Notes under the pieces: model-generated
The model's database searches: none
The model's input: only the letters and a program-made list of their open reading frames with translations
Told to the model about the DNA's origin: nothing
NCBI GenBank assembly: GCA_027083135.1
Contig: JALWQH010000043.1
Span: 1-64,000 of the forward strand
Length of the DNA stretch: 64,000 nt
DNA from: Desulfurococcales archaeon
Lineage (GTDB): Archaea; Thermoproteota; Thermoprotei_A; Sulfolobales; WAQK01
Direction of reading: 5' to 3'
Shown: positions 49,718 through 62,198 of the stretch, piece by piece
Numbering within the stretch: the stretch's first letter is position 1
How the letters are laid out: every line of letters starts with the position of its first letter
Position numbers and translations under genes: made by a program

Positions 49718-49810
49718 ATGATGGGATCTAAGGGTATTTATCCTATACGCTTGCGGCATTCCTTTTAGGCGGTGGCGCATAATCTATGGTGGCCTTAAAG
49801 GTGAATATTG

Positions 49811-51643
49811 ATGGGCGGACTATTCGCAGCATCCACTATTAGGGGGGTTGATGCAGCACCCATAATAGTGGAGGGTATTAGGCGCCAATACTTTAGGGGA
49901 GGAGACTGTGCAGGCATAGCTGTCCTCAAGGACTCTCAGCTCATAGTCAGGAAGGATAGTGGCAGTGTTGATGAAGTTGAATCTAGGCTTAGCTTAAGCA
50001 ATCTTCCAGGAACCATGGGCATAGGGCACACTAGGTTCTCAACTCACGGCAGGCCTCACAGGGAGAACGCACACCCACACCTGGACTGCAAGGGCAGGAT
50101 AGCCGTGGTTGGTGATGGAGCCATATCGAACTATGAGGAGCTGAGGGATAGCCTCATGGTGTCGGGGCATAGAATAATATCTAGGTGTGACTTCGAGGTA
50201 GTGCCTCACCTCCTTGAATCCAGGCGTTCGGAAGCATCCCTCATAGACTCGCTGGCAGATGCTGTTAGAATGCTGGACGGCTTCTACTCCATGATAATCC
50301 TCGACGCCGATGCAGAGATGATGGCGGCATACTCCAATATGCAGCCCCTATATGTAGGGATAGGGGGTAAGGGAGTATACGTGTCTTCAACTAGGACCGC
50401 TCTCCACGGATACGCGGGCAAGGTGGCTGAGATTCCAGGCGGGGTTCTAATAGTGGTTTCAGGCTCTAGGCGGGTGGAGTTCTATAGGCTTCCAAGCCTC
50501 GAGCCCTTTGAAGCCGAGTTTAAGCTCCTGAGCATTGATCCCAGCCTGCTGGCGAAGGACGGCTATCCTCACCACATGTTAAGGGAGATCTACGAGATAC
50601 CGTATGCTCTCTTCAGAACGCTTGCAACCATTCAGAGAAAATACTTGTCTCTGGCTGCAAAGCTTATACGCGAGTCCCGCCGCCTATACGTTGTTGCTGA
50701 TGGGACAAGCCTTCACGCAGGATTCGTGAGCAACTACTACCTGGTAGACCTGACTGGGCTGAGCGCCCTCCCAGTAAGCGCCGCCGAGTTCCCCCTATAC
50801 CATGCCTCCAACGTAGGCCCTGGAGACATAGTTATAGCTATATCCCAGTCCGGCGAGACAGGCGACGTCATAAACAGCGTGTACGAGGCTAAGCTGCGTG
50901 GCGCCACTATTCTAGGGATAACTAATCATGTTGGCTCAAGGCTTGCCAGGCTTTCAAACCTATTCTTACCGATGGGTGCGGGGCCCGAGCTAGCTGTCCC
51001 GGCAACCAAGACCTTTACTTCAAGCCTCCTCGTACTGTATCTCATAGCGCTAAGCGCAGCCGAGGATTCCGGCAGGCTTAGGCCCTCAGAGGTGAGGGAG
51101 AGGATAGCAGGGATCAAGGGGTTTGCAGGCAGGCTTCACTCCGAGATGAGTAGGATGGACTCCTCGGCAGCCAAGGCGGCGGAGCACATAGCTGGGTGTA
51201 GAAGCGGCTACGTAGTGTCGAGGGGAATATCGTATCCTATAGCTATGGAGGGGGCATTGAAGCTGAAGGAAGCCGCATATGTTCACGCTGAGGGGATGGA
51301 GGCAGGTGAGTTTAAGCACGGCCCCATAGTCCTCCTAGACGAAGGATTCTTCACAGTATTCATAACACCCGTGGAGCGCCAGGCAGCGGAGGCGACCTAC
51401 CCGCTCATAGAATCCGCTGTTGAGAAGAAGGCTACTGTGACAATAGTTGGCTTTGAAGGTGATCCACGCCTAGATGAACTGGGCTCTCAAGCACTAGTGA
51501 TAAAGGCCCCGCGGACTGATAGGCATCTAGCCCCCATAGCGCTGACAGTGCCCCTACAATACCTTGCCTACAGGCTGGGTGTAGCCAAGAACCTGGATGT
51601 AGATAAGCCGAGGTATCTTACAAAAGCTGTTACAATGGGGTGA
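49811..51643 (+). CDS. GlmS-like protein: intact sugar isomerase domains, glutaminase domain lacking catalytic cysteine
   Basis: A 610-residue homologue of glucosamine-6-phosphate synthase. The N-terminal glutaminase fold is recognisable (GIGHTRFSTHGRPHRENAHPH, AISNYEELRD), but the conserved MCGI start reads MGGL, so the N-terminal nucleophile cysteine is replaced by glycine; the oxyanion-hole HNGxIxNY reads GDGAISNY. The two SIS domains are well kept (ISQSGETGDVINSV, EGMEAGEFKHGPI, and final KAVT with the active lysine). It probably uses free ammonia or runs as a GlcN-6-phosphate deaminase/isomerase. ATG 49811 has AAAGGTGA upstream; no start that would restore Cys is visible. Confidence 0.85.
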   Translation: MGGLFAASTIRGVDAAPIIVEGIRRQYFRGGDCAGIAVLKDSQLIVRKDSGSVDEVESRLSLSNLPGTMGIGHTRFSTHGRPHRENAHPHLDCKGRIAVVGDGAISNYEELRDSLMVSGHRIISRCDFEVVPHLLESRRSEASLIDSLADAVRMLDGFYSMIILDADAEMMAAYSNMQPLYVGIGGKGVYVSSTRTALHGYAGKVAEIPGGVLIVVSGSRRVEFYRLPSLEPFEAEFKLLSIDPSLLAKDGYPHHMLREIYEIPYALFRTLATIQRKYLSLAAKLIRESRRLYVVADGTSLHAGFVSNYYLVDLTGLSALPVSAAEFPLYHASNVGPGDIVIAISQSGETGDVINSVYEAKLRGATILGITNHVGSRLARLSNLFLPMGAGPELAVPATKTFTSSLLVLYLIALSAAEDSGRLRPSEVRERIAGIKGFAGRLHSEMSRMDSSAAKAAEHIAGCRSGYVVSRGISYPIAMEGALKLKEAAYVHAEGMEAGEFKHGPIVLLDEGFFTVFITPVERQAAEATYPLIESAVEKKATVTIVGFEGDPRLDELGSQALVIKAPRTDRHLAPIALTVPLQYLAYRLGVAKNLDVDKPRYLTKAVTMG

Positions 51644-51649
51644 AGAGCT

Positions 51650-52906
51650 GTGCAGGGCTTCAAAAGAGTGTATGATGAGCTTTACGGTTTTATTAGGCTT
51701 GGAGGCGTTGTTTTGGGGGTTGTTGATACTCCTGTTTTCCAGAGGCTCCGCAGGGTTAGGCAGCTCTCAGCCGCATACCTCGTATACCCCGGAGCAACCC
51801 ACACGAGATTCAGCCACAGCCTAGGCACCATGCACCTAATGAACAAGCTTACCTCAAGGCTTGTCCAGGAGGGCTATATTCCACGGGATGAAGCCGAGGC
51901 GCTCAGCCTTGCAGCACTCCTCTACAATATTGGTGTCTTCCCCTTCGCCCACTCCCTCGAAAGCCTTTACCTGGAGATGGATAAGGAGCTTGACAACAAG
52001 TATCTCGCCTCCCTCATACTGGAGAAAACGGAGATCAGGGATGTGCTCTCAGACTGGGGCTACACTCCCAGCGAGATCATAGGGCTAATCAAAGGCGAGG
52101 GGAAAACCAGGTACTCCGTGCTTCTACGCGGAGACCTTGACGTCAGGAAGCTCGACTATCTTAGAAGAGACACTCTTCACACAGGAGTGGCTTATGGGAT
52201 GATAGATGTTGACAGGCTTCTTGAAACCATAAGCCTCGACGAGAACGGCGACATGGTTGTAGATATAAAGGGGCTGAGAGCGGTTGAGAACTTCTACGTG
52301 GCCAGGCTGCACATGTATCAGTCAGTATACTATCATAAGACCATAATAGGCTACGAGCTTCTCCTCCGCCTCATATATAGGAGGCTCATGGAGGAGCTGC
52401 CTGAAGTGGCTGAGACCCTCTCATCCAGGTGGCTGAGGGAGATAGTTGAGACAGGGGACATAGTGTACTGGGATGATGAGTGGGTTTTCTCAAGGCTCTA
52501 CGTGGCTCTAAGCTCAGAGAGGGTGAGCCGCGACGTTAAGAAGATGATCAGGGATTTCCTGGATAGGAATGGGCCCCGCATACTCGTCGATCTTTCAAGG
52601 CTATCCATGAAGCCTCCCTCCCCCAGCGACTATGAGGAGCTCAGGAATTATCGGGAGAGGCTTGAAGGAGCAGTGCCTGGAGAGTCCATCCACCTCTTTG
52701 CAGACTCCATACCAGTATTCAGGAGGAAGCCCGTATACATTAGGGTTAGAGGGAGGAAGCTGTCAGTGGATTCGAAGGAGCTTGACGCCCTGCCCTTCTA
52801 TCTGCCAAGATACTATAATGTCCTCAGAATATACGTGTCCCCAGATTACAGGGAGCGTGCCAGAGACCTGCTCTTCGGCCCCCAGAAACCTGCCTCACCA
52901 CTATAA
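51650..52906 (+). CDS. HD-fold protein (SAMHD1/YwfO-like) with lost metal ligands
   Basis: A 418-residue protein of the dNTP triphosphohydrolase-like HD group. The frame of the family is clear: PVFQRLRRVRQLSAAYLVYPGATHTRFSHSLG in parts, then FPFAHSLES and LDYLRRDTLHTGVAYG. The key metal ligands are missing: the HD doublet (usually LxHDIG) is Y92-N93 in LLYNIG, and the later aspartate (DxDKxDY or DADRxDY) is R166 in DVRKLDY. Only H56 remains. Hydrolase activity is doubtful; a structural or regulatory role is possible. GTG start at 51650, six bases after the GlmS-like gene, so likely one operon. Confidence 0.75.
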   Translation: MQGFKRVYDELYGFIRLGGVVLGVVDTPVFQRLRRVRQLSAAYLVYPGATHTRFSHSLGTMHLMNKLTSRLVQEGYIPRDEAEALSLAALLYNIGVFPFAHSLESLYLEMDKELDNKYLASLILEKTEIRDVLSDWGYTPSEIIGLIKGEGKTRYSVLLRGDLDVRKLDYLRRDTLHTGVAYGMIDVDRLLETISLDENGDMVVDIKGLRAVENFYVARLHMYQSVYYHKTIIGYELLLRLIYRRLMEELPEVAETLSSRWLREIVETGDIVYWDDEWVFSRLYVALSSERVSRDVKKMIRDFLDRNGPRILVDLSRLSMKPPSPSDYEELRNYRERLEGAVPGESIHLFADSIPVFRRKPVYIRVRGRKLSVDSKELDALPFYLPRYYNVLRIYVSPDYRERARDLLFGPQKPASPL

Positions 52907-52914
52907 CCCCCTAC

Positions 52915-54120
52915 TCATAGCACGAATTTACCCATCACCACCCTTCTACGGGCACCAGTCGCGCCGGGAACATTGTTCGGCACACCGTTAGCAGCCTCGT
53001 GGCCCAGTATAGCTATGCCGAGCGCCTCCTTCGCCTTGCTGTCTATACCGTAATCCTCATGGAAGGACAGCCTTATGCCCCTGGACCTAAGCTCCTCCCG
53101 CAGCATTCCCATAAGGGTTTTATTCCTGGCTCCTCCTCCACCAACTATGACTTCGTTGATTCCTACCTTTGGCAGGATATACTTGTCATAATTGTATATT
53201 ATGCTTTTAACAGTAAACATTGTTACTGTGGCTACTATATCCTCCGGCGATAATCCTCTCCTCCTCCCGGCCTCCACTATTTTTCTGGCTAGCCTTAATC
53301 CGAACTCCTCTCTCCCCGTTGTTTTGGGCGGCGGCATCCTTATGAAGGGATGCTTCATGAGCCACTCAAGCAGGACTTCATCCACGCTTCCCTCAGCAGC
53401 CATCTCCCCGTTAACATCTATCCTCCTCTCCCCTCTGGTTAGGATTGATACTACGCCGTCTATCAGCATGTTGCCTGGACCCGTGTCGAAGGCGTATACC
53501 TCCTCTATGCTAGGTGTGGGTGGGAGGACTGTTACGTTTGCTATTCCCCCTAGATTCTGTACGGCTCTTCCAGTCTTAGAGGAGAATAATATGTAGTCTA
53601 CATATGCTATTATGGGGGCTCCCTCACCCCCTGCAGCCATGTCTCTGACCCTGAAGTCTCCTACCGTAGGCCTACCTACACGTTCCGCTAGAATACTTAT
53701 CTCGCCTATCTGCAGAGTAGATCTCACGGTTACGCCTGCTATACTTGTAGGTCTGGGGGCATGGTATAGGGTTTGGCCGTGGCTGCTTATAAGATCAATA
53801 TCTCTGGGATCCACTCCAGCCTCCTCTAAAACGCTGAGCAATGCGTCGGCGAATACTTTCCCTACAGCCATGTTCAGCAGGCATGTCATCCTAGTCGAGC
53901 CTCTCTCAGCCGCTCTGAGCAGTGTTCTCCTAAGCTCCTCGGAGTATGGTCTAAGATGATACTTGTAGCCTTTCACCCTGAGCCTCCGTGCAGATCCCTT
54001 CAGCTCTACTAGTACAACGTCCACTCCATCCATACTGGTGCCTGACATGAGGCCTGCAACCATTCTTTGATCACTGCTGAATAAGTCAAGCCATGGGTTC
54101 CTAGACAAACCTCTCTTCAC
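52915..54120 (-). CDS. anmK: Anhydro-N-acetylmuramic acid kinase
   Basis: A 401-residue ASKHA-fold kinase. All AnmK blocks are present: AGLMSGTSMDGVDVVLV, ISSHGQTLYHAP, TLQIGE, GDFRVRDMAAGGEGAPI (catalytic Asp region), NLGGIANVT, FDTGPGN and VGGGGARNKTLM. In bacteria it converts 1,6-anhydro-MurNAc to MurNAc-6-phosphate during peptidoglycan recycling. Archaea of this type are not known to make peptidoglycan, so the substrate may come from bacterial debris or be a related anhydro-sugar. GTG start at 54120 overlaps the serine hydrolase stop by GTGA, so the two are translationally coupled. Confidence 0.92.
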   Translation of the reverse strand: MKRGLSRNPWLDLFSSDQRMVAGLMSGTSMDGVDVVLVELKGSARRLRVKGYKYHLRPYSEELRRTLLRAAERGSTRMTCLLNMAVGKVFADALLSVLEEAGVDPRDIDLISSHGQTLYHAPRPTSIAGVTVRSTLQIGEISILAERVGRPTVGDFRVRDMAAGGEGAPIIAYVDYILFSSKTGRAVQNLGGIANVTVLPPTPSIEEVYAFDTGPGNMLIDGVVSILTRGERRIDVNGEMAAEGSVDEVLLEWLMKHPFIRMPPPKTTGREEFGLRLARKIVEAGRRRGLSPEDIVATVTMFTVKSIIYNYDKYILPKVGINEVIVGGGGARNKTLMGMLREELRSRGIRLSFHEDYGIDSKAKEALGIAILGHEAANGVPNNVPGATGARRRVVMGKFVL

Positions 54121-55181
54121 CTCAGGGAGGCGAGCACAGCGTTATGTATCCTGGCCCTGGCCTCCGCTATAGGTGTGCCTCTGCCTAGGTGAACCCTATT
54201 GGTCAGCAGCACCACGGCTATGCTGTAGGATGGGTCAACCCACACCGAGGTTCCTGTGAAGCCCGTGTGCCCGAATGCTTTCGGGGAGAAGAGGTCGCCT
54301 GCATGCCTGTATCCACGCCTATACAATCTCCATCCAAGCCCATAGGTGCAGGGGCCTTCAACCCATGGTGAGAGCATTGTTCTAGCCATGGGTGTTGACA
54401 GCAACCCTCTCCCCTCAAGCGATTCCGCAATGCTCCACGCTATTAGGCCGACCTCCTCGGCTGTTGAGAATAAGCCTGCATGGCCGCTCACCCCATCCAT
54501 AGCGTACGCGTTCTCATCATGCACCTCTCCTCTAATCACTCCTCCCCGCCTAGTGTCACGCTCAGTTGCAGCTATTTTTCCAGAGTATCCTCTGGCTAGG
54601 GGATTATACATGGTTGCCTTGAGGCCTAGAGGGGAGGAGACCATATCGTCGAATAAGGAGTCAAGCCTCTGCCCAGCTATTCTTTCAACCATGGCTGTAG
54701 CTATAATATAGCCTATATCACTGTACACGCATTTGGCTCCAGGCTCACCTACTAGAGGCAGCTTAAACGCCTCTGCGAATACTTCCCTCCTATTCCCAGC
54801 CGCCTTGTATAGGGGTGCCCATGGCGGCAGGCCTGAGGAGTGCGTCAGCAGCATCCATGCCTTCACCTTCTCCTTAACAGGGCTCGGGCCTCCAGGCCCC
54901 CCTGCAAACTCGGGTATAATGCTGGCTACAGGCTGCTGCAGGTCGAGCAGCCCCTCCTCTACCAGCCTAGCAGCCACGGAGGCTAGTGAGAGAGGCTTAG
55001 TCAGCGATGCGAGGTCGAATAATGTGTCAGTGCTCATAGGCTCCTCAGGGCTGAGGGAAGCGTATCCAGCCGACAATAATAGCCTGGCCTCACCCTTATA
55101 TAATACTGCTAGCACCGCTCCAGCATAAGATACACCAACGTATTTTTCAAGTAGTTTTTCGAGGAGCCTCTCCCTAAACAT
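54117..55181 (-). CDS. Class C beta-lactamase-fold serine hydrolase (AmiE/esterase-like)
   Basis: A serine hydrolase of about 354 residues. Catalytic motifs: S59-x-x-K62 (ASLTK), Y153-S154-D155 (CVYSDIGY) and H305-T-G307 (FGHTGFTGTS). The closing VVLLTNRVH resembles bacterial serine hydrolases linked to muropeptide recycling; Bacillus AmiE, an N-acetylmuramyl-L-alanine amidase, belongs to this fold. No signal peptide is seen, so it should act in the cytoplasm. ATG 55181 is preferred over GTG 55193. It is first in a two-gene operon with anmK and divergent from the SIS gene. Substrate unknown; esterase or amidase both possible. Confidence 0.8.
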   Translation of the reverse strand: MFRERLLEKLLEKYVGVSYAGAVLAVLYKGEARLLLSAGYASLSPEEPMSTDTLFDLASLTKPLSLASVAARLVEEGLLDLQQPVASIIPEFAGGPGGPSPVKEKVKAWMLLTHSSGLPPWAPLYKAAGNRREVFAEAFKLPLVGEPGAKCVYSDIGYIIATAMVERIAGQRLDSLFDDMVSSPLGLKATMYNPLARGYSGKIAATERDTRRGGVIRGEVHDENAYAMDGVSGHAGLFSTAEEVGLIAWSIAESLEGRGLLSTPMARTMLSPWVEGPCTYGLGWRLYRRGYRHAGDLFSPKAFGHTGFTGTSVWVDPSYSIAVVLLTNRVHLGRGTPIAEARARIHNAVLASLR

Positions 55182-55275
55182 GTGTGGAGACACTTCATAC
55201 CACTCTTATTTTCCATGCATTCATCAGTATTATTTTAATATAGCACCTATACGTATGCCTATAGGGGTTGGTTTT
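55182..55275. promoter_or_regulatory. Divergent promoter region between serine hydrolase/anmK and SIS/nagA
   Basis: A 94-base AT-rich spacer. ATTATTTTAATATA at about 55227-55240 is a TATA candidate for the SIS gene, giving a transcript start near 55262 and supporting ATG 55276. A short inverted repeat, CCTATA (55246-55251) and TATAGG (55260-55265) with an eight-base spacer, sits where transcription should begin and could be an operator. Its arms are short, so chance is possible. Confidence 0.4.
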
Positions 55276-56028
55276 ATGGATGAAGAGCCAAGCAGCATAG
55301 TGTCCAGATACCTGGAGCTTGTGGAAAGCATTCTCGAACGCATAGCCTTGGAGGAGGAGGCCTCCATCGAGGAGGCGTCAGGCATACTGGTGGACGCTTA
55401 TATTAATAACGGGGTGCTGCACGTGGTGGGAGCAGGGCACTCGGCAATCATAGGTGAGGAAATGTTCTATAGGGCGGGAGGCTTAGCCTTCATAAACCCC
55501 CTAATAGACTCAGACATCTCCGTCCATAGGAGTGCTAGCAGGGCCTCAGCCCTAGAGAAGCTGCAAGGATATGCTGAAACCCTCCTACACTCACAGGGCT
55601 TGGAGAAAAACGATGCAGTGCTAGTGGTGTCAACCTCTGGTGTAAACGTCTTCCCAGTGGAGGCAGCAGTCTATGCTAAGAATACTGGATGCAGGGTGAT
55701 AGCCGTGACTTCCAGGGATTATTCAGCCAGCCTTAAGCCCAGAAACCCTTATGGGAAAAGGCTCTACGAGGTCGCGGATGTAACGGTTGATAACAAGGTT
55801 CCCCCAGGCGACGCATCCCTAGATATTAGGGGGGTGCCTGTCAGAGTAGCCCCCGTATCAACCATAGCTAACTCATTCATAGTTCACAGCATATCAGCCC
55901 TCACAGCCATGAAGCTTGCTGAAAGAGGAGAGAAACCACCCGTCTGGATGAGCATACATCTACCTGGCGGAAGGGAGCATAACGCAGGCCTAATAGAAAA
56001 ATATCGTCCACGCATAAGGTTGTTCTAA
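55276..56028 (+). CDS. SIS-domain sugar-phosphate protein (UPF0309/COG4821-like)
   Basis: A 250-residue sugar isomerase-domain protein. Features: N-terminal helix VSRYLELVESILERIALEE, GAGHSAIIGEEMFYRAGG as the phosphosugar loop, VVSTSGVNVFPVEAA as the second SIS motif, and the ending LPGGREHNAGLIEKY. It is not a clear MurQ: the MurQ GTSGR motif is absent. Yet it occupies the place between anmK and nagA where MurQ would be needed to remove lactate from MurNAc-6-phosphate. ATG 55276 is chosen over earlier in-frame codons on promoter evidence. It probably forms an operon with nagA. Confidence 0.75.
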   Translation: MDEEPSSIVSRYLELVESILERIALEEEASIEEASGILVDAYINNGVLHVVGAGHSAIIGEEMFYRAGGLAFINPLIDSDISVHRSASRASALEKLQGYAETLLHSQGLEKNDAVLVVSTSGVNVFPVEAAVYAKNTGCRVIAVTSRDYSASLKPRNPYGKRLYEVADVTVDNKVPPGDASLDIRGVPVRVAPVSTIANSFIVHSISALTAMKLAERGEKPPVWMSIHLPGGREHNAGLIEKYRPRIRLF

Positions 56029-56047
56029 CCTCCCCGGGGGTTAAGCA

Positions 56048-57208
56048 TTGCCTGAGGAGATAATAATCAACGCAGCCGCCGTCTACACTCCCCTCCAAAC
56101 TATTAGGAGAGCCTCCATAGTTGTGAGAGACGGCGTGGTAACCAGCCTCAAATCCGAGTGGAGTTCGAGGATAGAGGCCTTAAACCTGAAAAACTATGTT
56201 ATCGCCCCAGGCTTCATAGACACGCATATCCATGGATGCTGCGGCCATGACACTAACTCCGCCTCCACAACCGATATCAGGAGGATGGCTGAAGAGCTCG
56301 TCAAGCATGGGGTAACAGCTTTTGCCCCAACCAGCGTCACAGCGGATCACGAAACGCTGCTCAAGATAGCTAAGAGCGTTTCAGCCTACATGGAGGAGGC
56401 TGAAGGAGAGCCTCTCGGAGCAGAGGTCATAGGCCTCCACATGGAGGGCCCATACATAAACCCTGAGATGCGGGGGGCGCAGAATCCAGAGCATATAAGG
56501 AAGCCCAGCCTAGAAGAGTTCCAGGAATACGTTGAAGCATCAAGGGGAAAACTAGTTATAATGGACATAGCCCCCGAGATCGAGGGGGCCCTTCAGCTCA
56601 TCTCATATGCCTCCAGCCTAGGCGTACATGTGGGCCTAGGCCATACGAATGCAACCTACGAGGAGGCTGTTAGAGGCATAGTGGCTGGAGCCTCCAGGGC
56701 CACCCATATATTCAACGCTATGAGGAGGTTCCACCACAGGGATCCAGGGATCACTGTAGCATGCCTTCAGAACCCCCACGTCTACATTGAAGTAATTGCG
56801 GATCTCATACATCTAGCCTCCCCTACACTGCGCCTCGTAGTAGATTATGCTGGAACTAGTAGAACCATGCTTATAACAGACGCGATAAGCGCTACAGGCC
56901 TACCTGACGGCACATACTCTCTCGGAGGACTAAGGGTAACAGTGAAAGAGGGGATAGCCAGGCTGGATAACGGTGTGCTTGCAGGCAGCACTCTAACTAT
57001 GGACAGGGCTGTTAGAAACGTTGTTTCTCTAGGCTATAGCCTTAGGGATGCCTTAACCATGGCTAGCCTGACACCTGCTCGTTCTCTAGGCCTAGAGGGA
57101 ATGGGGTGTCTCAGGCCTGGATGCAGGGGAGACATCGTTGTGCTCGACGAGATGCTAGGGGTACGTGGAGTCTTTGTAAGGGGAATTAACATGTATGAGG
57201 ATTACTAG
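56048..57208 (+). CDS. nagA: N-acetylglucosamine-6-phosphate deacetylase
   Basis: A 386-residue amidohydrolase that removes acetate from GlcNAc-6-phosphate. Metal and substrate motifs: PGFIDTHIHGCCGHDTN, HMEGPYINPEMRGAQ (metal Glu), GLGHTNATYEEA and THIFNAMRRFHHRDPG (His ligands), and LITDAISATG with the catalytic Asp. TTG start at 56048, 19 bases after the SIS gene. Its product, GlcN-6-phosphate, can feed UDP-GlcNAc synthesis or be deaminated, for which the GlmS-like protein at 49811 is the nearest candidate. Confidence 0.92.
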   Translation: MPEEIIINAAAVYTPLQTIRRASIVVRDGVVTSLKSEWSSRIEALNLKNYVIAPGFIDTHIHGCCGHDTNSASTTDIRRMAEELVKHGVTAFAPTSVTADHETLLKIAKSVSAYMEEAEGEPLGAEVIGLHMEGPYINPEMRGAQNPEHIRKPSLEEFQEYVEASRGKLVIMDIAPEIEGALQLISYASSLGVHVGLGHTNATYEEAVRGIVAGASRATHIFNAMRRFHHRDPGITVACLQNPHVYIEVIADLIHLASPTLRLVVDYAGTSRTMLITDAISATGLPDGTYSLGGLRVTVKEGIARLDNGVLAGSTLTMDRAVRNVVSLGYSLRDALTMASLTPARSLGLEGMGCLRPGCRGDIVVLDEMLGVRGVFVRGINMYEDY

Positions 57209-58790: not shown

Positions 58791-59075
58791 ATGATGGAGG
58801 CTGTGCGGGCGCATATAAGGATCTATGGTAGAGTTCAAGGAGTATTCTTCAGGGCTAATATGAGGGAGCAGGCTAGAATACTTGGGCTTACAGGCTGGGT
58901 TAGAAATCTTCCCGATGGAAGCGTTGAAGCCGTGATCGAGGGGCCGCGGAGCAAGGTTTTAGAGCTGGTTAAATGGGCTTACAGGGGGCCCAGGCTAGCC
59001 AGGGTTGAGAAGGTGGATGTCGAGTGGGAGCAAGCTACAGGCGAGTATAATGACTTCTACATACTATACCATTAA
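58791..59075 (+). CDS. acyP: Acylphosphatase
   Basis: A 94-residue acylphosphatase that hydrolyses acyl phosphates. The catalytic arginine is in [18 protein letters not shown] and the asparagine in [17 protein letters not shown], both required. ATG 58791 or ATG 58794. It is small, cytoplasmic and convergent with the DUF354 gene, whose stop overlaps its own by four bases. Confidence 0.95.
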
Positions 59076-60127
59076 CCTCCCTTCAGGATCCTTAAAGACT
59101 CCTCAATGACGATGCCGCCTGGATCCTCAAGTGTCTCCAGCAGGCTGGATGTATCCACTCTAACCTCCCTCCTATAGAAGTCCTCGACCATGGCTTCAGC
59201 CTCCTTGAGGCTGCGCGCCCTGTAGATTGGGAACCCCATGCTGCTCAGCTTCTCGTTGAGCGGTAATAGGCCTTGAAACAAGGTTATTCCCGGAACCCCT
59301 AGGAGCGCTGCCTCAACAGCCATGGTATTACCCCCTGTTACAACGGCTGAGGCATAATAGACTAGGCTTGCACCGTCAACAGGTTTCTCCAGAACCCTGA
59401 GGCCAGCGTCGGCAGCCCGTGTAGCCTGGTCATGATACCTGGGGAGAAATATTGTGGGGTATCCTTTGGACGCAAGCCTGGATGCAAGGAGCACTAGATC
59501 GATTCTCCACTCATAGTATGAGGCCTTGCTCTCCTCCGCTCTGACCACGATGTAGCCTGGATCTACTCCTAGCTCTTCAAGCACGCCTGGATCAGGCTTA
59601 AACCCCTTTATCCAGAGGAGCTGGTCAACGCCGTGGAAGAGCCTCACCCTCGTCCACTCCCTCAAAACATATCTCTCCATGAGGCCGTGGGGAAGGAGGT
59701 CCGAGTATATGAGCACCTCTGCTAGGGGGATGGAAAGCCTGCTGGCGGGAATAGAGTGGGGGGAATCGCTTAAAGCTATGTAAGGTATCCTGAGCCCGAA
59801 GGCCACTCTTGCTGCAGGCGGGTCAGGATAAGCTATGAGCACGCCGGGCTTCGTGGCAGAGGCCCATGCAAGCAGCCCCTTCATCCTCTCAATATCGGCT
59901 TCAAGCTTCCCCCTCAGGCTTCCTCCCCCATGCCTACCTATGATTACAGGCTCGTAGCCCTGCCTCTTAATAGCATCCACAGTGTAGTCATAGTCCCTGC
60001 ATGTGATTACAGCATCTATGCCTGCCTCCCTAAGCTTATCGGCAAGCTTTGCTGCGAGCAGCCCCTGCTTAGGTGTTTGGGCATCTATCCATGCAAGCCC
60101 TCCTATCTTAACCACTCCCGGAAACAC
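59072..60127 (-). CDS. DUF354-family protein (GT-B glycosyltransferase-like fold)
   Basis: A 351-residue archaeal DUF354 protein. The two halves fit a GT-B fold of the MurG/UDP-GlcNAc epimerase kind: [26 protein letters not shown]-like start (in parts), [26 protein letters not shown], then in the second half [21 protein letters not shown], which resembles a nucleotide-sugar-binding GG-E loop. No substrate is known. Start GTG 60127; GTG 60115 is possible. Confidence 0.75.
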
Positions 60128-60733: not shown

Positions 60734-60833
60734 GGCTATTCACCACGAGTATATAGCGTGCCTCTGCATCCATATTAGGCTGGCTCATCATTTAAAATAC
60801 GCGGATACGTATTCTGCGGTGAGCGTGCACCTC

Positions 60834-62198
60834 ATGGGGAGGCTGTTCGGCACCGATGGTGTTAGAGGAGTGTTGAACGTTGAGATGACGCCGCAGCTGG
60901 CGTTAAGGCTGGGCTCAGCTATAGGCACATATCTCGGCGCTGGATCCCAGGTGCTTGTGGGGAGGGATGCTAGGAGCGGCGGGGAAATGTTGGTCAGCGC
61001 TCTTGCCGCAGGGCTTATGAGCATGGGGGTTAGGGTGTGGAATGCTGGAATGCTGCCCACACCTGCCCTCCAATACGCTGTACGTGAGCTAGGATACGAT
61101 GGCGGCGTAATGGTGACTGCAAGCCATAATCCTCCAGAGTATAATGGCATCAAGGTGATAGCGGCGGATGGGATAGAGGTTCCTAGAAGCGTTGAGGCTG
61201 AGATAGAAGCAATATTCTTTGAGAATAGAGTTAGACCCGTAGATTGGCGTGGCCTGGCTGGAGGAGTTAGAAGGGAGGAGAAGGCCCTGGAGAAATACGT
61301 TGATGGCATTGTAGGCATAGTGGATAAGGATAGAATCGCATCCCGCAACTACAGCGTTCTAGTCGACCCTGCCAACAGTGTAGGCGCCCTGGCAGCACCG
61401 CTCGTCCTCAGGAGACTAGGTGTGAAAACCTACACCCTTAACGGGCACATTGATCCAGGCTTCCCCGGCAGGGAGCCTGAGCCAACGACGAGCAGCCTAA
61501 TGCCCTCGGCTAGAGTAGCTGTCGCTCTAGGCGTGAACCTAGGAGTAGGCTTCGACGGAGATGCTGATAGAGCCATATTCATAGATGAGAAGGGGAGGAT
61601 ACATTGGGGGGATAGGAGCGGCACCCTGCTTGCAGCATATCTTGCGGAGAAGCACAGGGATTACCCTCGCAGAATATATACAGGGGTTTCAAGCAGCATG
61701 CTTGTCGAGGAGTACTTGAAGCCCAGGGGCATACAGGTAGTGTGGATGAAGGTTGGAAGCGTAGATATATCTAGGCGCCTAGTAGAGGAGAAAGGGCTCT
61801 GCGGCTTCGAGGAGAACGGCGGCTTCATGAACCCTGCCCACCAGCCAGTTAGAGACGGCTCAGCAACCCTCGCATTAATGCTGGAACTAATGAGCGAGGA
61901 GCATCTGCCAGCATCAGCCCTCTTCAACCAGCTGCCAAAATACTATCCGGTTAAAACCAAGATACCTATGAGCAGGGAGAAGGCCCTCGAAGCATTAGAG
62001 CGTGTAAGAGAGGCCTATAAGGGTGAGAGGATGATAACCATTGATGGAGTTAAGATAATAGGCGAGGATTACTGGGTGCTTGTGAGGCCCAGCGGCACAG
62101 AGCCTGTTCTAAGAATAATGGCTGAAGCTAAGAGCAGGGAGAAGGTGGAGAGGATCGTAGAGGAGGTTAAGAAAATAGTTCTAGGTGGGGCTCGGTGA
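60834..62198 (+). CDS. glmM: Phosphoglucosamine/phosphomannomutase
   Basis: An alpha-D-phosphohexomutase of about 454 residues. Motifs: RLFGTDGVRGV at the start, the phosphoserine loop TASHNPPEYNG, the metal loop GFDGDADRAIF, the sugar loop FEENGG and the phosphate loop RPSGTEPVLR. The start fits GlmM best, but archaeal enzymes of this type often act on several sugars. TTTAAAATA at about 60791-60799 is a good TATA box. GTG 60819 and ATG 60834 both lie near the expected transcript start; ATG 60834 gives the family start MGRLFGTDG. Confidence 0.88.
   Translation: MGRLFGTDGVRGVLNVEMTPQLALRLGSAIGTYLGAGSQVLVGRDARSGGEMLVSALAAGLMSMGVRVWNAGMLPTPALQYAVRELGYDGGVMVTASHNPPEYNGIKVIAADGIEVPRSVEAEIEAIFFENRVRPVDWRGLAGGVRREEKALEKYVDGIVGIVDKDRIASRNYSVLVDPANSVGALAAPLVLRRLGVKTYTLNGHIDPGFPGREPEPTTSSLMPSARVAVALGVNLGVGFDGDADRAIFIDEKGRIHWGDRSGTLLAAYLAEKHRDYPRRIYTGVSSSMLVEEYLKPRGIQVVWMKVGSVDISRRLVEEKGLCGFEENGGFMNPAHQPVRDGSATLALMLELMSEEHLPASALFNQLPKYYPVKTKIPMSREKALEALERVREAYKGERMITIDGVKIIGEDYWVLVRPSGTEPVLRIMAEAKSREKVERIVEEVKKIVLGGAR

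Follow-up and report, generated by a model that had tools for sequence, protein, structure and literature searches.

Salvage of amino sugars from peptidoglycan is a pathway type already known from bacteria; PBP4B is encoded in the murQ operon of Escherichia coli, and amiE of Bacillus subtilis lies in the corresponding cluster (PMC5061867). Equally relevant is NagS (SCO4393), a Streptomyces enzyme that dehydrates N-acetylglucosamine 6-phosphate (GlcNAc-6P) with four essential residues, His53, Arg64, Glu94 and Asp179, and whose substrates include both GlcNAc-6P and N-acetylmannosamine 6-phosphate (ManNAc-6P) (PMC12680351). NagS orthologues among Streptomycetaceae are identical at 58.7% or more; in three distant homologues (25.7-35.7% identity), GlcNAc-6P dehydration was absent (two) or negligible (one), and N-acetylmuramic acid 6-phosphate (MurNAc-6P) appears nowhere in the text of that report (PMC12680351). 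The present work concerns a 64-kb stretch of contig JALWQH010000043.1 from a Desulfurococcales archaeon (positions 1 to 64,000, hereafter the window), in which a SIS-domain protein of the UPF0309 family is clustered with AnmK, a class C serine hydrolase, NagA and a GlmS homologue. Judged from protein families and gene context, this locus likely serves the cytoplasmic salvage of a peptidoglycan sugar, anhydro-N-acetylmuramic acid (anhydro-MurNAc) or MurNAc, free or peptide-linked, originating from bacterial debris.

Gene content and predicted chemistry of the locus

All six open reading frames (ORFs) named in an earlier, sequence-only reading of the window were confirmed at their positions, and their arrangement agrees with the one it described. 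On the minus strand, the serine hydrolase (54117-55193; S12-type, PF00144, 1.4e-58) and AnmK (52915-54120; PF03702, 1.1e-93, and NCBIfam AnmK models) overlap by 4 bases and diverge, across an A+T-rich intergenic spacer of 82 bases (55194-55275), from a plus-strand pair formed by the UPF0309/PRK02947 SIS protein (ORF 55180-56028, likely ATG at 55276) and NagA, the GlcNAc-6P deacetylase (56048-57208; TIGR00221, 307.6 bits against a cut-off of 225.65). Adjoining them, also on the plus strand, are a GlmS-like two-domain protein (ORF 49808-51643, ATG at 49811) and an HD-domain protein (HD_assoc_2; 51650-52906). A strongly hydrophobic N-terminus was seen in no protein of the cluster, in keeping with the lack of signal peptides claimed earlier. 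The window also holds what appear to be archaeal genes for ribosomal proteins, the proteasome and the exosome, and the cluster therefore does not lie on a bacterial contaminant contig.

The SIS protein had been read as the MurQ etherase, an identification ruled out by a score of 23.6 bits against the MurQ profile NF003915 (cut-off 168) and by a genome-wide family search that found no MurQ elsewhere in this genome; against the PRK02947/UPF0309 profile, the same protein scores 280 bits (cut-off 135). Its best solved relatives, both by sequence and by fold, are NagS (9eol) and BH3325 (3cvj): the structure model (predicted local distance difference test, pLDDT, 90.8) reaches template-modelling (TM) scores of 0.90 and 0.92 with them, respectively, and MurQ structures come next at about 0.56-0.66. 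Identity to NagS in the structural match is 38%, below the level of the Streptomycetaceae orthologues, and the four essential residues of NagS are all retained. Furthermore, Glu94 aligns with the glutamate of the MurQ EGAED motif (profile alignment, hhalign probability 97.6), which we take to be the residue acting on C2. By analogy, NagS seems to carry out the initial half-reaction of MurQ, except that water rather than lactate is expelled.

In the route proposed from families and context, alongside the directly observed gene content, conservation, active-site residues and phyletic exclusion, the serine hydrolase would strip the peptide, and NamZ, encoded elsewhere in the genome, would release MurNAc from short glycans; AnmK would open and phosphorylate anhydro-MurNAc to give MurNAc-6P; the UPF0309 protein would eliminate the lactyl ether of MurNAc-6P by MurQ chemistry, yielding GlcNAc-6P; NagA would deacetylate this to glucosamine 6-phosphate (GlcN-6P); and the GlmS paralogue would deaminate GlcN-6P to fructose 6-phosphate. 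Alternatively, GlcN-6P could be diverted towards uridine diphosphate-GlcNAc by the archaeal phosphoglucosamine mutase GlmM (60819-62198, plus strand; TIGR03990, 535 bits, cut-off 439), which is a possible anabolic outlet. Taken as a whole, with every step as assigned, this account is on balance the probable one.

For AnmK, the family assignment is firm (314.7 bits against PF03702, cut-off 24; 452 against NF007148, cut-off 387) and the catalytic motifs are complete, namely DTGPG with the catalytic aspartate and GTS-x-DG. The predicted reaction is the conversion of 1,6-anhydro-MurNAc to MurNAc-6P, and both genome context and the AnmK tree argue for a muramyl sugar. The hydrolase has a class C fold, with SxxK, YSD and HTG motifs that are invariant in 17 sequences; its best family is PBP4B/YfeW, yet it falls below the cut-off of that family (PRK03642, 188 bits against 385), and the profile search gave no match to an AmiE-named model. 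A putative amidase acting on MurNAc-peptides is its most economical role.

The GlmS homologue, previously considered an ordinary GlmS, starts with MGGLFA in place of the canonical MCGIIG and thus lacks the glutaminase catalytic cysteine, but keeps the isomerase motifs LKLKE, KHGP and a C-terminal TK. A second, canonical GlmS beginning with MCGIIG is encoded elsewhere in the genome (G000:C4:15808-17625) and scores 705 bits against 483 for the cluster copy, which nevertheless passes TIGR01135. The same distinction runs through the relatives, where the cluster-linked copies examined (GlmS') nearly all begin with MGG and the rest with VGG or LGG, whereas canonical copies elsewhere carry MCG. Because the cysteine is lost, the isomerase site is kept and a canonical GlmS is present, the cluster copy is probably a catabolic GlcN-6P deaminase serving the step after NagA. 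In several genomes without GlmS', an isomerase-only protein is found, with profile matches that include NagB-II and GlmD.

Recurrence of the gene set and its partition between MurQ and UPF0309

The distribution of the key families was surveyed in 398 genomes of the window's phylum, with a 46-residue AnmK fragment in genome G165 excluded from the counts. AnmK is present in 23, MurQ in 28, UPF0309 in 28 and NamZ in 31 of these genomes. MurQ and UPF0309 never occur together (0/398); this zero overlap alone is not significant (p 0.24), and what gives the pattern its weight is that almost every genome with NamZ or AnmK has one of them: a single one, either MurQ or UPF0309, is present in 22 of the 23 AnmK genomes and 30 of the 31 NamZ genomes. 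Association with either etherase candidate is correspondingly strong (Fisher 1.6e-28 for NamZ and 5.8e-20 for AnmK, with shared ancestry ignored). Another twelve genomes with AnmK from the window's order carry UPF0309 without exception, and none carries MurQ. AnmK sequences of genus g41 (family f17), which are linked to MurQ, fall with strong support inside a UPF0309-linked clade of the AnmK tree, the pattern expected if the etherase partner had been swapped. It is this combination of mutual exclusion, one-of-two cover and tree nesting that suggests UPF0309 as the substitute MurNAc-6P etherase. Within the window's own family, the searches of G399 and G402 gave no AnmK, no UPF0309 above cut-off, no NamZ and no second GlmS.

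Recurrence of the neighbourhood had been set beforehand as a test of the sequence-only reading, and the gene set was found in several archaeal families together with extra pathway genes. In Zestosphaera tikiterensis, the nearest named relative found (AnmK 55% identical; same order, different family), hydrolase-AnmK diverges from UPF0309-GH84-GlcNAc kinase, with NagA-GlmS' nearby. Genome G404 has GH84-NamZ-kinase-UPF0309-GNAT-peptide ABC transporter followed by AnmK-hydrolase, and in G411 and G415 genes of the phosphotransferase system (PTS) lie beside GH84-UPF0309-hydrolase-AnmK-NagA-GlmS'. NamZ is directly downstream of UPF0309 in f30 genomes where the locus was read, and f32 genomes group MurQ, NamZ, AnmK, a NagZ-type GH3 and a BadF-type kinase. 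In addition, four archaeal genomes have a diaminopimelate decarboxylase (above the TIGR01048 cut-off) immediately next to NamZ (L031 10222-11508; L115 6687-7928; L117 5967-7208; L119 7876-9126), which suggests that diaminopimelate from the peptidoglycan stem peptide is also used.

Altogether, cytoplasmic amino-sugar or muropeptide salvage, as first proposed, stands: the gene set is conserved in relatives and fits anhydro-MurNAc or MurNAc salvage best. The NamZ, GH84/NagZ and peptide-type ABC transporters of relatives indicate bacterial debris as the source, also as proposed, and leave the accompanying suggestion of a cofactor-like sugar of the archaeon's own unsupported. What did not survive from that interpretation is the equation of the SIS protein with MurQ and of the GlmS homologue with an ordinary GlmS.

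Several neighbouring genes deserve mention beside this set. The HD protein, which has a 46% identical paralogue on contig C9, is not found beside AnmK in relatives and was rejected as a pathway member; it lies outside the conserved set as a bystander. Also outside that set is a DUF354 protein, possibly glycosyltransferase-like (59072-60127), which adjoins an acylphosphatase near GlmM. In two archaeal clusters of MurQ type, a PIG-L/BshB1-like deacetylase separates NamZ from a GNAT protein (L121 6041-6736; L124 7391-8113). PTS genes (EI, HPr, IIA, IIB and an ascorbate- or mannose-type IIC, of varying completeness) adjoin UPF0309-NagA at several loci of this archaeal phylum, in which the PTS is unusual (L064 13564-18699; L065 126-1813; L125; L127 4788-10639; L177 979-12975). 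A second, divergent UPF0309-like clade, flanked by a ROK-like kinase on one side and a large glycosidase-like protein on the other (L110 6628-10677; L112 6467-10356), probably acts on another sugar. Moreover, a protein annotated as neutral ceramidase (N-terminal domain) in two alphaproteobacteria, and one resembling it in an archaeon, adjoin UPF0309 or GlmS' (L177 5713-6981; L192 10769-12043; L197 10793-12076).

Opposing evidence and rival explanations

A number of observations weigh against the muramyl assignment. NamZ, an exo-N-acetylmuramidase of which YbbC is the Bacillus form, is encoded in the window genome (NamZ_N 3e-54, NamZ_C 9e-40), on contig C9 and therefore outside the cluster; no GH84 was found in this genome by a search that took in GH84, not GH3/NagZ; and the GlcNAc-kinase homologue is divided between two contig ends. 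Two draft genomes, G039 with AnmK and G236 with NamZ, have neither MurQ nor UPF0309. The subclade of the window's UPF0309 protein also holds members from G002, G377 and G341, all without AnmK and NamZ. In bacteria, UPF0309 genes lie within nagE-nagA-nagB operons and also behind UlaA-type PTS genes, in both cases with no MurNAc marker, although import of MurNAc as its 6-phosphate through a PTS would fit the latter contexts. Since its bacterial homologues lie in GlcNAc and PTS operons, the substrate of UPF0309 is the weakest link of the proposed pathway, and these contexts, together with the subclade mates lacking AnmK and NamZ, hold the assignment of UPF0309 as the etherase replacing MurQ to a level only slightly better than even.

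As to uptake in the window genome, its NamZ gene lies downstream of a major facilitator superfamily (MFS) transporter and an S9-family peptidase (L108 2290-6957, contig C9). Genome G426 also groups S9, MFS and NamZ; its MFS proteins are not clearly homologous to those of the window genome, so that the MFS protein near NamZ was not accepted as a conserved transporter and is a candidate only.

The most durable rival is a generic salvage of GlcNAc or chitin-like sugars, in which UPF0309 would act on GlcNAc-6P or ManNAc-6P as a NagS-like dehydratase, an epimerase or a sensor, and AnmK on a non-muramyl anhydro-amino-sugar. The bacterial nag operons just described speak for it, as do archaeal UPF0309-NagA pairs that adjoin PTS genes without AnmK and the acceptance of both GlcNAc-6P and ManNAc-6P by NagS itself (PMC12680351). 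It leaves unexplained, however, why MurQ and UPF0309 exclude each other, why UPF0309 and NamZ are paired directly in f30 and why AnmK is linked to a hydrolase of murQ-operon type, and distant UPF0309 proteins failed on the very substrate it invokes, GlcNAc-6P (PMC12680351). This explanation is accordingly considered unlikely, though not negligible.

A narrower objection accepts MurNAc salvage but assigns the etherase step to another protein, leaving UPF0309 a side role and making the Cys-less GlmS an ammonia-dependent synthase. The link between UPF0309 and MurNAc-6P is indeed a prediction from sequence and context, PTS contexts without muramyl markers exist, and the reaction of the GlmS sugar-isomerase domain may in principle be reversible. 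Yet UPF0309 is the only candidate with a MurQ-like fold at these loci and excludes MurQ, and synthesis is already served by the canonical GlmS, so that this version appears improbable. Least tenable is a levoglucosan-type kinase, converting 1,6-anhydroglucose to glucose 6-phosphate among incidental amino-sugar neighbours: levoglucosan kinase is the best PDB match of the window's AnmK (254 bits against 188 for solved AnmK), a further point against a muramyl substrate, but sister proteins of the same clade come from genomes with MurQ and NamZ and the hydrolase-AnmK pair is repeatedly accompanied by NagA, NamZ and GH84, which renders the idea very improbable.

Implications and comparison with known systems

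Extended beyond the window, salvage of peptidoglycan sugars would mean that thermophilic archaea of several families feed on peptidoglycan from bacteria by means of a dedicated pathway in the cytoplasm, with UPF0309 replacing MurQ and a deaminase evolved from a Cys-less GlmS, a proposition whose chances we consider evenly balanced. No report that this phylum has conserved clusters in which other proteins take over the etherase and deaminase steps was found in the open literature searched, nor was any independent report of archaeal MurNAc salvage, prior subscription-only work being possible. If true, archaea not expected to make murein would contribute to the degradation of bacterial cell walls in hot habitats, and the gene set by which they do so would be identifiable as NamZ, AnmK, hydrolase, UPF0309 or MurQ, and NagA. 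UPF0309 proteins from organisms other than Streptomyces, among which those assayed showed little or no NagS activity, would also gain a function, and some bacterial members of the family would form a second, hitherto hidden group of enzymes that act on MurNAc-6P (or catalyse related eliminations). Such a second type of etherase would matter for bacteria that deal with MurNAc but lack MurQ, including mycobacteria, for which an unidentified lactyl etherase has been posited (PMC13041923). Likewise, the Cys-less GlmS proteins form a recognisable class that passes the GlmS profile and probably runs in the catabolic direction.

Among archaea, haloarchaeal plasmids of Halorussus and Haladaptatus (L195, L196) carry AnmK, serine hydrolase, NamZ, NagZ and GH18, and in L195 also a peptidoglycan recognition protein and a peptide-type ABC transporter; they probably hold a peptidoglycan salvage island. 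As in the present system, an archaeon combines AnmK with the serine hydrolase and NamZ, and in Halorussus a peptide-type ABC transporter lies close by; the hosts, however, belong to a distant group (Halobacteria), and the stretch has no UPF0309. A bacterial counterpart is the plasmid NC_011961 of Thermomicrobium roseum, with the order SIS-nagA-serine hydrolase-anmK-NagZ-BadF kinase-murQ: its hydrolase and AnmK are 38% and 45% identical to those of the window and NagA and a second SIS protein adjoin, whereas MurQ is used and NagZ and a MurK-type kinase lie inside the cluster.

At the level of the enzyme, the window's UPF0309 protein shares family, fold (TM 0.90) and the catalytic His, Arg, Glu and Asp with NagS, but has His in place of Asn228 and a different gene context. 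With MurQ it shares the SIS fold, a probable equivalent of the catalytic Glu and an inferred pathway position, although it belongs to a separate family, is shorter and remains below the MurQ cut-off. Finally, the E. coli murQ-murP-yfeW and B. subtilis murQ-murR-murP-amiE-nagZ-ybbC operons, like the window, combine a class C hydrolase with MurNAc genes and have NagA acting downstream (PMC5061867); in contrast to them, the window genome lacks MurQ, has AnmK within the cluster and belongs to an archaeal host, in which UPF0309 appears to take the place of the etherase and a Cys-less GlmS that of the deaminase.

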